DNA from: Clostridia bacterium
GTDB taxonomy: Bacteria; Bacillota; Clostridia; Oscillospirales; Acutalibacteraceae
Reading direction: 5' to 3'
DNA: 51,266 nt
Assembly (NCBI GenBank): GCA_017399175.1
Contig: JAFQEE010000014.1
Span: forward strand, 1-51,266
A program made the translations under genes and the position numbers. Of this stretch, positions 35,117-41,361 are shown piece by piece (position 1 is the first letter of the stretch; each line of letters opens with the position of its first letter). The notes under the pieces are model-generated. The model did not search any database and had not been told where the DNA came from. It saw nothing but the letters and a program-made list of their open reading frames with translations.

Positions 35117-35548
35117 TTATTCTTCGTCTTCACAGCAGTCGCAATCGCAATCAAATTCTAAATCGAATTCAAGTGATTCGCCACAGTTTGGACATTCTGC
35201 TTCACCGTCTTCAATGATTTCACCGTCAAAGTAAATCACTTCACCACAGTTTGGGCATTCAACTTCATACATATCTTCGTCGCAATCACAACAATCGTCA
35301 CAATCACAGTCACAGTCGTCACATTCATCATAGAAGATGTCTTCAAGCTCTGCAAGGTCTTCGTCAACCTCGTCAAGCTGTTCTGTAACGAGAGCCATTT
35401 CGTCATCAAGGTCGCTTACTGCAAGAGCAAGGTCCTCAAGAACATCAAGAACTGCGTTAATAACTTTTGTTTCCTTATCGTCCTTGTCAAAATCAAGACC
35501 TTCAACAAGACCCTTAAGGTATGCTACTTTTTCTGTTACTGTCATCAT
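35117..35548 (-). CDS. Coiled-coil/zinc-ribbon protein with Asp-Cys-rich linker (CD1247-like)
   Basis: A 143-residue acidic protein. Residues 1-70 form a helical region (VAYLKGLVEGLDFDKDDKE and a Leu/Glu/Asp heptad stretch), like the CD1247 N-terminal domain known in Clostridia. Then comes a dense run of alternating Asp and Cys, followed by a paired CPNCGE...CPNCGE zinc-ribbon (about 98-128), and another Asp/Cys tail. In total about 17 cysteines lie in the last 75 residues. Probably a metal-binding regulatory or scaffold protein; no reaction is inferred. It lies 43 bases downstream of efp on the same strand. Confidence 0.75.
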   Translation of the reverse strand: MMTVTEKVAYLKGLVEGLDFDKDDKETKVINAVLDVLEDLALAVSDLDDEMALVTEQLDEVDEDLAELEDIFYDECDDCDCDCDDCCDCDEDMYEVECPNCGEVIYFDGEIIEDGEAECPNCGESLEFDLEFDCDCDCCEDEE

Positions 35549-36230: not shown

Positions 36231-37364
36231 TCAAGGAACAATTATATAACTTTGTGCTTCACTTGACGCCAAATCTTCGTAAAATTCTGTATTTTCCACA
36301 GGATTTTTAATAGTCGGAATGATTTTTACAGTTGAAAAATTGTTTTTTGCCTTGTTGTTAAGAACAAGATAACTGTTCTCAATATAGGTTAAAAAGTCGC
36401 CATTATTGGGAGCTTCAAGTACAGGGGAGCAAATATTAGCGGCAGTATCAAAAAGTGTTCCGCCCCATTTTTCTGTATTTCCGCCATCAGCACATTCTAA
36501 CGGACAACCTAAAATGACGGGTCTGCCACTTGCCCCAACAACTGCTTTTTCGATAAAATTCATTAAAATGATGTTTCTGTTAAGAGTTGTGTCGTCAGAT
36601 GTATAAACAGGGACAGCACCTGTTCGTGATTCAGGGAATTGCACCGAATCAAGATAAATACAGTCAACACCCATTGATACAACTTCTTTTATGACAGAGC
36701 AGAGATAATTTGTTGATTTTGAATTTGTAGGGTCAAGCCAAACCTTGCCGTTCATAATGGCTGAATCGTCAAACCATATTCGTGTTTTTTCTACATCCTC
36801 ATAAATATATGCGTTAAGTCGCTGCGGTGCGATTGTATCTTCAAAGCAATAAATTCTACCAAGAAGTAAAAAGCCTTCTGATTTGATTTTGTTAATTATC
36901 TGTGAATCAATTTCAATGTATTCTTCGTCACCTGAATATGAAATCAAGTCGGAATTATAAGTTAAAAGACCTTCTTTTGTCTTGAAATCAAGCATAACTG
37001 CATTGAAGCCGTTTTCTTTGGCAGAATTAAGGTTATTCTCAAGGTCTGTCATATCACGAAGAACATAGTTATCGATATAAGTTGCTCTTACCGTACCAAT
37101 ATTTTCTGCAGTAACCAAAGGTGGTGAATCAATATGATTTTTATCTAAAGGTCGTGTTGAAAGATTATAACAGAACTTGGCAAAAACAAAAATACCCACA
37201 AAAAGGCAACACAAAAGGACGCAAAACAGAATTGTTCTGATGCGTTCTCTTTTTTTCGCCTTTCGACTTTCGTGAATAGGACGTTCACCGATTCGCGAAG
37301 GATATTTTTTTTGAAAACCGTAGTACCCTTTAAGCCTACGCTGGTTGTTTTCCTTTTTTGCCAT
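36231..37364 (-). CDS. DUF4015 putative glycoside hydrolase, membrane-anchored
   Basis: A 377-residue protein with a basic cytoplasmic N-terminus, one membrane span (about 45-68), and an external TIM-barrel-like domain of the DUF4015 (putative glycosyl hydrolase) family. Features include ENGFNAVMLDFKTKEG (strand with acidic residue), DGKVWLDP-like NGKVWLDPTN and GVDCIYLDSVQFP. Substrate unknown, probably a cell-wall or extracellular glycan. It is the last gene of the Rnf-like operon, 14 bases after rnfA. ATG has an AAAGGAAA site. Confidence 0.8.
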   Translation of the reverse strand: MAKKENNQRRLKGYYGFQKKYPSRIGERPIHESRKAKKRERIRTILFCVLLCCLFVGIFVFAKFCYNLSTRPLDKNHIDSPPLVTAENIGTVRATYIDNYVLRDMTDLENNLNSAKENGFNAVMLDFKTKEGLLTYNSDLISYSGDEEYIEIDSQIINKIKSEGFLLLGRIYCFEDTIAPQRLNAYIYEDVEKTRIWFDDSAIMNGKVWLDPTNSKSTNYLCSVIKEVVSMGVDCIYLDSVQFPESRTGAVPVYTSDDTTLNRNIILMNFIEKAVVGASGRPVILGCPLECADGGNTEKWGGTLFDTAANICSPVLEAPNNGDFLTYIENSYLVLNNKAKNNFSTVKIIPTIKNPVENTEFYEDLASSEAQSYIIVP

Positions 37365-37378
37365 ATTTTATATTTCCT

Positions 37379-37972
37379 TTAAATAAATACAGATGTGCCT
37401 GAAATTCCTGTAAATGCCAATGATAAAAGGGAGGTATAAATGAAAATTGCAGGAGTACCCTTAAAAGCCTTTGAAATAGTGGTAATTGTATCAAGTTTTT
37501 TTAGTCCGCTGTTAATAAGGATAACAGCAATAATGTATGCAAGACCTGCACCAAGACCTGCACCGATTGATTCGACTACATTAAATGCAGAACGGTAATT
37601 GATTAACGGCATTGCAAGAACGAGAGTATTGAAGGCTGCAATACCGATTCTTCGTTTTGTAGCAGGCTGAACCTTTGGAATTATATTTGCAATAATCATT
37701 GCGATGATATAAACAACAAGAAGAATGCCTACATAAATAAGTGCGTGATAAATCTCGTTAAGATTGTGAATTAAAGGGAATAAATCAATAAGAACGCACA
37801 ATGCTGAAATAACGGTTGAAAAAAGAGTAATAAAAACAGCCATAGGTAAAAGCTGACGGGGTTTAGCACTCATACGGACTGCTTCGCTTAAACCGTAACC
37901 ACCGTTAAATATAAGATTTTGGAACAGCATAACATAGAGTGCAGCGGAAAGAAGGTTTAAAAAGATGTTCAT
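37379..37972 (-). CDS. RnfA-like membrane subunit, cysteine ligands missing
   Basis: A 197-residue protein with six spans, recognisable as RnfA/NqrE from overall pattern and from FKGTPAIFIYTSLLSLAFTGISG at the C-terminus. In canonical RnfA/NqrE two cysteines (C26 and C120 in NqrE) bind an intramembrane [2Fe-2S] cluster with two from RnfE/NqrD. Here the GLC motif is GLS (S29) and the NCAVLG motif is NTLVLA (T116); the only cysteine (C59) is elsewhere. The redox cluster is therefore probably absent. Overlaps rnfE by 4 bases; ATG has a GGAGGTGG site. No rnfB, rnfC or rnfG lies nearby. Confidence 0.88.
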   Translation of the reverse strand: MNIFLNLLSAALYVMLFQNLIFNGGYGLSEAVRMSAKPRQLLPMAVFITLFSTVISALCVLIDLFPLIHNLNEIYHALIYVGILLVVYIIAMIIANIIPKVQPATKRRIGIAAFNTLVLAMPLINYRSAFNVVESIGAGLGAGLAYIIAVILINSGLKKLDTITTISKAFKGTPAIFIYTSLLSLAFTGISGTSVFI

Positions 37973-38934
37973 TTCTTGCCACCTCCGTCGTTCTTGTTTT
38001 TGTATTCCTGAAGGTCAGAAAGCATATCTGAAAAATCATCCATGTATGTTCTGTTACCTTCCTGTTCAACAGGAGTTTCTTCAGTAACAACTGTTGTTTC
38101 GGGAGAAGAAGTGTTTTCATTGACAGACTTACGATTACGCTTTGATTTCTTTTCTTTTTTAGGCTTAACCTTTTTCTCTTTTTCCTCTTTTGATTTAGGA
38201 ACATAGATTTTAATATTGTCTTCTTCAGCAGTATCACCGTAAGGATTGAAATCATCCTTCATAAGTTCAACAAACTTATCACGGAGAGAACGCCTGATTT
38301 CTGATGTGTCAAAAGCCTTGTTTGGGTTTGCTTCAGGATATTTTACACCTATAAAGGCTTTAAGAGCAGCAGCAAAAAATCCCATAAGTAAAAGTCCGCC
38401 AAAAGGCATTAAAAATGCAGGGAGTTTTATAGGGATATTGATATCATAACCCAAAATAGTGCCGTTTCCTAAAAGTTCACGGACAAAGCCTGTGATAATT
38501 GCGACTGCACCATAGCTGAGTGAAGATGACACAGCATCAATAAAACTTGTTTTTACATCATTTTTAACAGCAACTCGTTCACAATGAAGTGCAATAAGAG
38601 AGTTGACAGTCATTAAAGGAAGATAAACACCAAAGTTTGCTGAAATGTCAGGGAAAAGTTTATCCACACCATACATTATGGGGAAGATAATTGCAACACC
38701 AAAAACTGTGTAAAGTGCAACTCGCCAGTAACGACGGACATTTTTAAGGAATTTTGATGCCAATACCTCGCAAACAATCAATTCAACAGCAGTAACAACT
38801 GCTAAAAATATGGCAAGCTTTAAAGAAAAGGCAATAGCAACAACGGGACAAAGACCGATTGCCTCAAAAAGAATAGGGTTTTTGATAATTGCACTATTAC
38901 GAATAGTCTTTAATGTATGATTTTTATTACTCAT
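37969..38934 (-). CDS. RnfE-like membrane subunit with Lys/Glu-rich tail
   Basis: About 321 residues from the ATG at 38934, which has an AGGAGG site 8 bases upstream. The first 205 or so form the RnfE/NqrD six-span domain: KNPILFEAIGLCP with the conserved C29, then LPLMTVNSLIALHCERV and FVRELLGNGTI. The second expected cysteine ligand (NqrD C112) is serine (S112); a different cysteine (C118) lies six residues on. A long charged tail (about 205-321), rich in Lys and Glu, is unusual for RnfE, which normally ends soon after the last span. It overlaps rnfD by 8 bases and rnfA by 4, so translation is coupled. Confidence 0.88.
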   Translation of the reverse strand: MSNKNHTLKTIRNSAIIKNPILFEAIGLCPVVAIAFSLKLAIFLAVVTAVELIVCEVLASKFLKNVRRYWRVALYTVFGVAIIFPIMYGVDKLFPDISANFGVYLPLMTVNSLIALHCERVAVKNDVKTSFIDAVSSSLSYGAVAIITGFVRELLGNGTILGYDINIPIKLPAFLMPFGGLLLMGFFAAALKAFIGVKYPEANPNKAFDTSEIRRSLRDKFVELMKDDFNPYGDTAEEDNIKIYVPKSKEEKEKKVKPKKEKKSKRNRKSVNENTSSPETTVVTEETPVEQEGNRTYMDDFSDMLSDLQEYKNKNDGGGKK

Positions 38935-40087
38935 TGCTGTCACCTCCTATAAAGAAAGGTGCATCCTGCTCTGTTACAGTATTTTCTTCAGAAATAACTG
39001 TTTCAAGAGTTTCACTTTCACGATTTATGGTTTCTGTTTCTTCGTCTGAAGTTTCAGTTTCTTCCACAATTTCTTCAACAGGAGAAATATCAGGAATAAG
39101 TTCAAGAACTTCTTCAGGAACAACAGACGGAACAGGTTCAACAATTTCAATATATGGTTCAAGTGCCTTGATTTGTTTCTTTTCTTTTCGGGTCAACGGA
39201 AGACCGTCAAAAAGGTCAGAAACAGCACAAGAAATCAAGAAGCCGAAACAAGCACCTTCTTCAAACGGGCAAACATAACGGATAACCATACAAATTATGC
39301 CACTTACAAATCCCCAGAAGAATTTTGCAACTGTTCGTTTTGGTGCAAAAAACGGAGATGAAATGAAAAATACTGCACCGAATAAAATCATTCCTGAGCA
39401 AAGTTCCATTACAACTGACACAACTCGACCTGTTGCTACTCTCGGGAAAAGAATAGCCATAAGGCAGATAGCAATTATGAATGTAAAAACAGGAATACTG
39501 TCTTTCGGTCTGCGAATTATTATAAAAACAAGTAAACCGATAAATGCCATAGCACAGCCTGTGCCCAATGCAGACGGAACACTACCGACAAACGCTTCTA
39601 ATATAGCAATAATGTTGTCGTCAACGGAATTTCCGTATAAGAGCATTTTGCCCAGTGAATCACCAAAATCTGAATAGTTATAAATTTCTTCAGGCCAACA
39701 AAGTGTGGCGAAACAAAGTGCAGAAACTGATGGAATAAATGGTGCGTTTTCAGGGCTACCGAAAGGCAACACGCAAACACCCATAGCAAAACTTGCACTT
39801 ATAGCGATTATCCACCATGGTGCGGATGCAGGTAAAAGTAATGCAACAGCAGTACCGATTACAAATGTATGATATGTTCTTGGTGGGAACTGAACATCAA
39901 GAAGCTTTTTACCAACAGATTTAAAAATCCAACAGGTAACAAGGGAAATTGCTATGTTAATAACAGCAAAAAAGCCGTGAATGAAAACAGCCACAGCCAT
40001 AGGAACACAAAGCATAAGAGCATAATCTCTTATTACTGAACGCTTAAATTCTTCTGTTAAATTTTGAGGCATATTTGTATCAGTCAA
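38927..40087 (-). CDS. RnfD-like membrane subunit with acidic tail
   Basis: A 386-residue protein whose first 310 residues form an RnfD/NqrB-type multispan domain (FPPRTYHTFVIGTAVALLLPASAPWW and the GSPENAPFIPSV stretch). A threonine occurs at GSVPSALGTGCA, near where RnfD carries covalent FMN, but the SGAT context is absent, so flavinylation is uncertain. The final 75 residues are very acidic. The start at 40087 is TTG with a GAGGGA site 7 bases upstream. First gene of the rnfD-rnfE-rnfA-DUF4015 unit; its upstream neighbour mecA is divergent, so rnfC is not here. Confidence 0.85.
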   Translation of the reverse strand: MTDTNMPQNLTEEFKRSVIRDYALMLCVPMAVAVFIHGFFAVINIAISLVTCWIFKSVGKKLLDVQFPPRTYHTFVIGTAVALLLPASAPWWIIAISASFAMGVCVLPFGSPENAPFIPSVSALCFATLCWPEEIYNYSDFGDSLGKMLLYGNSVDDNIIAILEAFVGSVPSALGTGCAMAFIGLLVFIIIRRPKDSIPVFTFIIAICLMAILFPRVATGRVVSVVMELCSGMILFGAVFFISSPFFAPKRTVAKFFWGFVSGIICMVIRYVCPFEEGACFGFLISCAVSDLFDGLPLTRKEKKQIKALEPYIEIVEPVPSVVPEEVLELIPDISPVEEIVEETETSDEETETINRESETLETVISEENTVTEQDAPFFIGGDSNE

Positions 40088-40180: not shown

Positions 40181-40705
40181 GTGATTTTTGAAACTCTTAA
40201 TGAAAATGTAATGTTACTGGAATTATCGGGCGATGAAATGGAGAAATTCCATATTACATATGACACACTAAACTGCGATGATGAAAACACAAAAAATATA
40301 CTTAAATCACTTTTATATAAAATTGATACAGAAAACAGAATTTCAAAGGGAGAAAAAGTTCTTGTTGAAGCAATGCCGACGGAAAATGGCGGATGCTTTT
40401 TTATACTCACCTTCGCCCGAAAGAGAAAGACTGTTTATAGGTTAAAAAGGAACAACGCACCTGCAATTTTTCATACAGACACCATTGACAATGTGCTGGA
40501 TTTTTTGTCTGCAATAAGAAATAAGGAGATAGCAGACCAAAAAATCGAAGTGTTCTCAATGGATAGTGAGTATTTTCTCCATATTTCCCAAAACAGCAGA
40601 AAGCTCAATATAATTATGTGTGAATACGGAGAAAGTGTCCACAATGTAAATTATGAAAAACTGAAAGAGTATGGCGAATCCTTAGGTACAGTTTATTTAC
40701 AGTAG
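40181..40705 (+). CDS. mecA: MecA-like adaptor protein (ClpC targeting)
   Basis: A 174-residue protein with the MecA layout: a short N-terminal segment resembling the substrate-binding end, an acidic middle (ENTKNILKSLLYKID), and a C-terminal alpha/beta domain (from about 85). The start is GTG at 40181 with a strong AAGGAGG site 7 bases upstream. In Bacillus MecA delivers ComK to ClpCP. Sequence similarity is moderate, and the target here is unknown. Its 3' end overlaps that of rpe by 13 bases in convergent orientation. Confidence 0.75.
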   Translation: MIFETLNENVMLLELSGDEMEKFHITYDTLNCDDENTKNILKSLLYKIDTENRISKGEKVLVEAMPTENGGCFFILTFARKRKTVYRLKRNNAPAIFHTDTIDNVLDFLSAIRNKEIADQKIEVFSMDSEYFLHISQNSRKLNIIMCEYGESVHNVNYEKLKEYGESLGTVYLQ

Positions 40706-41361
40706 TTTTCTTCTGCGATTTTTTTGAATTTTTCGATTGTGCCTTTACGGTCAGCACTTGAGAAAATTGCGTTACCTGAAACGAAAACATCAGCACCTGC
40801 TTTTGCAGCAATAGCGATAGTGTTCTCGTTGATACCGCCGTCAACCTCGATTTCACAGTTAAGACCGCGTTTTTCGATTTCTTGTCTTAATGCAGAAACC
40901 TTTGGCATCATATCTTCCATAAAACTCTGGCCACCAAAACCGGGCTCAACAGTCATAACAAGCACCATTGAAAGCTTGTCGAGATATGGAAAAATATCCT
41001 CGACAGGAGTCTTTGGTTTGACAGTAAGTGAAGCCTTTACACCGTTAGTAAGTATTTTGTCGATAGTTTCGTCGATAGGTGAGTCACATTCTGTGTGGAA
41101 AGTGATAATATCAGCACCTGCTTTACAGAAATCGTCGATATATTTAAGCGGTTCACTAATCATAAGGTGAACATCAAATGGTACATCAGTTGCTTTTTTG
41201 ATGCACTTAACAAGAGGAGCACCAAGAGTGATGTTTGGAACAAAATGTCCGTCCATAACGTCAATGTGCATATAGTCAGCACCGCAAAGTTCTATATCCT
41301 TTAATTCTTCTGCCATTCTTCCGTAATCGCAAGAGAGAATAGACGGTGAAATTTTCATCAT
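40693..41361 (-). CDS. rpe: Ribulose-phosphate 3-epimerase
   Basis: This 222-residue TIM-barrel enzyme interconverts ribulose 5-phosphate and xylulose 5-phosphate in the pentose phosphate pathway. The first strand is KISPSILSCDYG, followed by MHIDVMDGHFVPNITLGAP (metal-binding HIDVMDGHF), the VMTVEPGFGGQSF phosphate loop and EVDGGINENT. All metal-binding residues appear intact. ATG has a GGAGGAG site. Promoter at 41396-41424. Confidence 0.97.
   Translation of the reverse strand: MMKISPSILSCDYGRMAEELKDIELCGADYMHIDVMDGHFVPNITLGAPLVKCIKKATDVPFDVHLMISEPLKYIDDFCKAGADIITFHTECDSPIDETIDKILTNGVKASLTVKPKTPVEDIFPYLDKLSMVLVMTVEPGFGGQSFMEDMMPKVSALRQEIEKRGLNCEIEVDGGINENTIAIAAKAGADVFVSGNAIFSSADRKGTIEKFKKIAEENYCK

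Follow-up and report, generated by a model that had tools for sequence, protein, structure and literature searches.

One question raised by a 51,266-nucleotide contig of a Clostridia bacterium (order Oscillospirales, family Acutalibacteraceae; GenBank assembly GCA_017399175.1, contig JAFQEE010000014.1; the whole stretch, positions 1 to 51,266, is called the window here) is whether three Rnf-like membrane subunits encoded together, with no rnfC, rnfG, or rnfB beside them, can still belong to a redox-driven ion pump. The genes lie on the reverse strand and comprise an RnfD/NqrB-like membrane subunit (D; 38927..40087, 386 residues, TTG start, Pfam PF03116 at 1.2e-38), an RnfE/NqrD-like subunit (E; 37969..38943, 324 residues, GTG start, PF02508 at 2.5e-28), and an RnfA/NqrE-like subunit (A; 37379..37972, 197 residues, PF02508 at 8.9e-19). 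The D and E frames overlap by 17 bp and the E and A frames by 4 bp, in agreement with the single overlapping unit proposed in a first-pass annotation of this DNA; open reading frames were taken from the first start codon, and large negative intergenic gaps are in part over-called starts. Matches to PF02508 and PF03116 above the gathering score, along with a shared A fold, place the trio in the Rnf/Nqr superfamily. All three proteins fall below the NCBIfam cut-offs (55.1 bits versus 229.3 for RnfA, 71.4 versus 207.05 for RnfD, and 70.5 versus 213.4 for RnfE), and a PHROGs search gave no result. The trio descends from an old duplication of the Rnf membrane core, is restricted in the samples examined to one clostridial order (Oscillospirales), and it is tentatively read here as a complex that moves an ion without transferring electrons.

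The host genome (2.11 Mb in 72 contigs, 96.9% complete) contains four Rnf-Nqr matches, two at the trio and two on contig C72. This second contig carries a complete operon in the order rnfC, D, G, E, A, B, with an ApbE match in the gene upstream. Its C, D, E, A, and B subunits exceed the NCBIfam subfamily cut-offs, its G is the only FMN_bind match in the whole genome, and profile searches of the genome placed rnfC and rnfB above cut-off on C72 only. The same searches detected no rnfC, rnfG, or rnfB on the trio contig (C7), where not even a weak match falls, bearing out the earlier observation that these genes are missing on both sides of the trio. Because C72 holds the whole operon with the sole FMN_bind, rnfC, and rnfB, the trio represents a second, divergent set rather than part of a scattered Rnf; its locus, with D, E, and A alone, lacks the combination of rnfA, B, C, D, E, and G required of an Rnf operon. 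The first-pass annotation had called for a search for a second complete Rnf and held that C, G, and B genes elsewhere in the genome, with matching subunits, would speak against a non-redox role. Such genes do exist, but the operon that holds them is complete and already includes its own D, E, and A.

Redox sites have been lost throughout the trio. In window A, both cluster cysteines are replaced (S29 and T116), while in window E the sole survivor of the four is C32 (38848..38850, reverse strand) and the second site is S115 (38599..38601, reverse strand). These E numbers count from the GTG start; counted from an in-frame ATG three codons later, the residues are C29 and S112, the numbering under which the substitutions had originally been reported. 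In the 61 canonical rows, the first, second, and fourth cysteines are always present and the third in 60, with a gap in the remaining row. In divergent sets, the first and second A cysteines occur in 0 and 7 of 89 rows and those of E in 46 and 0 of 90, so that 38 of 89 sets have no cluster cysteine, 50 have one, and a single set has two. The four never occur together, which excludes, for every set seen, a [2Fe-2S] cluster bound by its four known ligands, and homologous trios with all four cysteines, which would have marked the window trio as simply decayed, were not found among the 89. In the A segment that formerly held the first cysteine, S-E-A-V-R (S29 to R33; 37874..37888, reverse strand) aligns with canonical C-P-F-L-G, and Arg at position 33 and Glu at position 30 recur in 75 and 63 of 89 rows.

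The flavin sites tell a similar story. Window D lacks the flavinylation motif D-x-x-[ST]-G-A-[ST] (as given in an excerpt of PMC12052999) and with it the context for covalent flavin mononucleotide (FMN), a loss noted in the first-pass annotation. The riboflavin-site Asn and Asp are also gone from window D; of the 63 D rows of its own family without an rnfC-like gene (C-less), one retains Asn123 and 21 retain Asp249. Two candidate replacements were rejected. A Ser beside the old Thr column is found in 74 of 90 D rows and was not counted as a displaced flavinylation site because the D-x-x-[ST]-G-A context is missing. A new metal site built from added cysteines was considered for E C121, whose column is Cys in 62 of 90 rows, and A C59, which is nearly invariant in one A alignment, both being common in C-less sets of the window's own family; it was set aside because C121 and C59, judging from canonical topology, should sit near opposite membrane faces, and in view of the 38 sets without any cluster cysteine.

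Cysteine-poor sets of this kind are widespread and conserved. Querying with window D recovered a window-type D plus a second, weaker D match in all but one of 39 genus genomes; the exception (G005, 81% complete) has the weak match only. All 38 genus loci encode D, E, and A with rpe upstream, and DUF4015 lies downstream in 37; at the 38th, L088, the contig stops inside A. Among 395 genomes sampled from the order, a divergent-A profile detected relatives in 71 (25 in the window's own family, 1 in family f23, and 45 in family f26), and among 391 from the class in 9, every one of the 9 belonging to the same order, at a threshold of 1e-40 that more distant relatives may escape. Two canonical A proteins score 113 and 129 bits with this profile and divergent rows at least 172.7, except the cut L088 (115.8), many of the scored divergent rows being themselves members of the profile. 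Another search found a trio relative outside the 1e-40 results in G240 (family f5, 55% complete). Trees were built from 43 of the 89 divergent sets and from 61 canonical sets, of which 60 were the highest scoring (one analysis used 79 rows); in them the divergent sets form a clade of their own, the canonical D rows numbering only two. The first-pass annotation had asked whether a cysteine-free D-E-A clade exists; the clade recovered is cysteine-poor, with 16 C-bearing sets among the 89 loci. The D, E, and A frames are full length at 87 of 90 loci, with two of the other three cut by contig ends, and a ratio of nonsynonymous to synonymous substitution (dN/dS) of 0.04 to 0.21 for the trio genes indicates strong purifying selection. 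Wide conservation without the cysteines, purifying selection, and a separate clade all support the proposed conversion to a non-redox role; the choice offered with it among transport, scaffolding, and ion leak is left undecided by sequence. The divergent core nearly always coexists with intact Rnf: among 69 of the 71 carrier genomes checked for canonical A (all but G033 and G035), 68 were positive, 65 over the cut-off and three at 225.7 to 228.6 bits. The remaining genome, G140 (locus L232; 99% complete), carries a divergent C-D-E-A set and no canonical A, so the set there does not seem dependent on canonical Rnf.

In the 16 C-bearing loci an rnfC-like gene precedes D (order C-D-E-A), and G and B were not recognized at these loci. 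Two of these C proteins were scored and, at 168.7 and 167.3 bits, fell short of the rnfC cut-off (246). All 16 retain the eight cysteines of two 4Fe-4S motifs. None has the GLGGAGFP loop for FMN and reduced nicotinamide adenine dinucleotide (NADH), which is replaced, mostly by a D-E-x-D-G-x-P-like sequence. The D riboflavin residues N123 and D249 are each retained in 14 of 16 of these sets. The best tree requires three changes inside the divergent clade for the D-E-A state and three for the C-D-E-A state, and families f1 and f26 each include both states. If descent was vertical, C was probably lost at least twice, although a single change of the C-bearing label is all that the well-supported branches by themselves demand.

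Loss of C is accompanied in the window's own family by long charged tails, in few independent events. Window D ends in an acidic tail of about 87 residues and window E in a charged tail of about 125, as the first-pass annotation described, and the E tail has a median of 152 residues in 63 C-less rows of this family versus 15.5 in the 16 C-bearing rows. In 11 C-less rows of families f26 and f23, D is extended instead (median 65). An RnfE-like protein at L098:5676-7769 (forward strand) has a tail of some 496 residues, many of them charged. Downstream of the window trio, 14 bp behind rnfA, lies a gene for a DUF4015 protein (36231..37364, reverse strand; PF13200 at 2e-21), a putative glycosyl hydrolase with one N-terminal membrane-like segment. 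DUF4015 follows the trio at 72 of 89 loci, and 69 of these 72 proteins have a hydrophobic, membrane-like N-terminal segment, by which their topology is likened to that of RnfG. The gene is a frequent neighbor rather than the constant one that had been suggested, and an obligatory partnership was rejected on this locus count together with hand-picked genomes, where 10 of 15 with the trio encode DUF4015, in one case (G164) at a separate site. The DUF4015 protein is a possible partner of the trio. At two loci, the position that rnfG takes in the canonical operon, between D and E, is filled by a gene for a Thr-rich protein that looks secreted and ends in a CAP domain (PF00188 in both; L091:5418-6191, forward strand; L096:6309-7091, reverse strand).

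Of the A columns invariant in canonical sets (at least 95%), 7 of 56 show at least 90% retention across the 43 divergent sets compared, as do 4 of 50 such E columns, and these 11 columns include A Asn112 (window N115, which adjoins T116 at 37625..37630, reverse strand) and E Arg67 (window R74; 38722..38724, reverse strand). In Acetobacterium woodii, according to an excerpt of PMC11889175, Asn112 helps hold a buried Na+, and Arg67 stands in an ion pair whose mutation at this residue strongly lowers Rnf activity. The ion-pair partner of Arg67, E Glu115 (window E122; 38578..38580, reverse strand), is present in 15 of 16 C-less rows of the window's own family (the other being Asp) and in 7 of 11 from families f26 and f23. 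E Asn107, the symmetric counterpart of ion-site residues, is retained at 84% in the 43 sets. The ion path is retained in part, not whole. A predicted structure of A keeps the canonical fold in Foldseek matches; a VIA-align list is a reinspection of those matches, not an independent search.

Given some retained ion-site residues and an alternating-access fold that is probably retained, the reading most favored, with a confidence somewhat short of even, is ion movement (Na+ or H+) by a D/(A-E) membrane complex that transfers no electrons. By sequence, the parts for electron entry, transfer, and exit are absent from the locus. D, E, and A would still assemble, and the A-E pair would retain its inverted alternating-access fold, as supported for A by the structural model and presumed for E and for the pair. 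A-E could then move an ion without redox chemistry, as an ion-coupled transporter or an ion-driven device, a role suggested by the partial ion site and by charged residues near the former cluster site. In the window lineage, the long charged tails of E and D may stand in for RnfC by binding some cytoplasmic protein, and the DUF4015 protein, with its single membrane pass and probably facing outward, may occupy the place of RnfG and act outside the cell.

Several observations weigh against this scheme. Thr110 of A, whose hydroxyl touches Na+ in A. woodii, and Glu88 of A, part of an ion-pair network there (both from the same excerpt of PMC11889175), are gone in 43 of 43 divergent rows, E Glu115 is retained in only 2 of 16 C-bearing sets, and the conserved Asn and Arg may have been kept for folding. 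Residues 1 to 30 of the A model, spanning the break in the first transmembrane helix and the old first-cysteine site, are its weakest part (block means of 68, 61, and 58). The link between tails and C loss also has exceptions: D and E tails total fewer than 60 residues in 5 of 11 C-less f26 and f23 rows and at least 60 in 2 of 16 C-bearing rows. DUF4015 is missing at 16 of 89 loci, and of 17 hand-picked genomes that lack the trio, 4 encode it all the same, one below the cut-off. Finally, the RnfE-like frame at L250:6781-7185 (reverse strand) has just 134 residues and a 188-bp gap before A, making L250 the sole divergent locus inside a contig with a short or possibly broken subunit.

How far do other explanations account for the same facts? 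A static scaffold or receptor, in which the trio has given up ion movement and holds or positions extracellular partners (DUF4015 or CAP proteins) together with cytoplasmic ones bound by the tails, is unlikely yet deserves serious weight: it fits the charged E or D tails of many C-less sets and the extracellular-enzyme-like neighbors, including the CAP genes between D and E, but the ion-site Asn and Arg among the few retained columns and the kept A fold are more than a scaffold seems to need. The same neighbors could be taken further, into an ion-gradient-driven machine in which alternating access of the cluster-free A-E pair would move the DUF4015 protein, or the CAP protein at L091 and L096, so that ion flow would do mechanical or catalytic work at the cell wall. 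This is modeled on canonical A-E acting on RnfG and is considered highly improbable.

The coexistence with canonical Rnf in 68 of 69 genomes would be expected if a divergent D, E, or A swapped into or regulated the normal complex. Such an accessory role is rather improbable given G140, the loss in most divergent sets of A Lys32 and Arg154, the partners of the last cluster of RnfB, and the position of the trio in the window genome on a different contig from the canonical operon, in a conserved place behind rpe. Redox activity by another path, through flavin bound non-covalently to D and, in the C-bearing relatives, through the 4Fe-4S clusters of C, draws its evidence from those relatives, with their intact cluster cysteines and mostly retained riboflavin residues. 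Even there the FMN/NADH loop is always replaced and a donor or acceptor subunit is absent from the locus, while C-less rows of the window's own family have largely lost the riboflavin residues, and no conserved partner was identified for the common new cysteine of E; this explanation is quite improbable. That the trio is a decaying duplicate of the Rnf operon has next to no chance of being correct. Lost genes and cofactor sites, long branches, and the short E of L250 would suit it, but a decayed pseudo-operon was rejected on the basis of intact frames (the one short E aside), purifying selection, and the same genomic place across the order.

That place is defined mainly by rpe, encoding ribulose-phosphate 3-epimerase (40693..41361 in the window, reverse strand; Pfam 7.4e-74), which is the most constant neighbor, upstream of the trio in 84 of 89 divergent loci; three of the others lie at contig edges, and the two lacking rpe are L091 and L096. 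Also upstream, a short MecA-like gene (40181..40705, forward strand; PF05389 at 1.5e-09) is transcribed divergently from the operon and recurs at 66 of 89 loci, and a link to the charged D and E tails is conceivable. On the downstream side, the DUF4015 gene is followed by one for EF-P, which adjoins a gene for a very acidic, Cys-rich protein of 143 residues (35117-35548, reverse strand) that is the same neighbor in part of the genus loci.

The trio belongs to the Rnf/Nqr superfamily yet fails every tested defining feature of the Rnf complex. Compared with RnfABCDGE of A. woodii (9eri), Azotobacter vinelandii (8ahx), and Clostridium tetanomorphum (7zc6), it is without B and G, the [2Fe-2S] ligand set, and the flavinylation motif, and its C is absent or lacks the FMN/NADH loop. 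Pfam-level Rnf matches in gut Clostridia should thus be read with caution, as they include sets incapable of Rnf function. No paper recognizably on a cysteine-less D-E-A set was found in the open-access literature, and the only paper found that names DUF4015 shows, in the excerpt available, a YkyA fusion and not an Rnf context (PMC12700454). The membrane-buried iron-sulfur cluster between A and E is described in an excerpt of PMC11889175 as exclusive to Rnf and Nqr, with A-E named as the ion path; a lineage without the cluster that keeps the fold, some ion-site residues, and C-bearing intermediates offers a natural experiment separating ion movement from electron transfer. Partial systems are known: excerpts of PMC8238504 and PMC10979944 describe two-subunit NQR/RNF-like systems in which D is fused to an NAD-binding domain and paired with an NqrC/RnfG-like protein. 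These resemble the trio in being incomplete and in having an RnfD homologue without the flavinylation Thr, but the trio keeps D, E, and A and has neither the fusion nor the NqrC/RnfG-like protein, window D matching PF03116 only and the single FMN_bind of the genome lying on C72. The history of Na+-NQR offers a likeness, as an excerpt of PMC4014512 holds it to have arisen when rnf was duplicated, rnfB was lost, and the cofactor sites of RnfC decayed. NqrA and NqrF were not recognized among the open reading frames beside the trio, the genome not having been searched with models of either. NQR retains the A-E cluster (PMC12174285, in the part available) and a G-like subunit and gained NqrF, whereas the membrane redox path of the trio is gone; its course would parallel the one proposed for NQR, both starting from a duplicated rnf, but lead to a non-redox endpoint.
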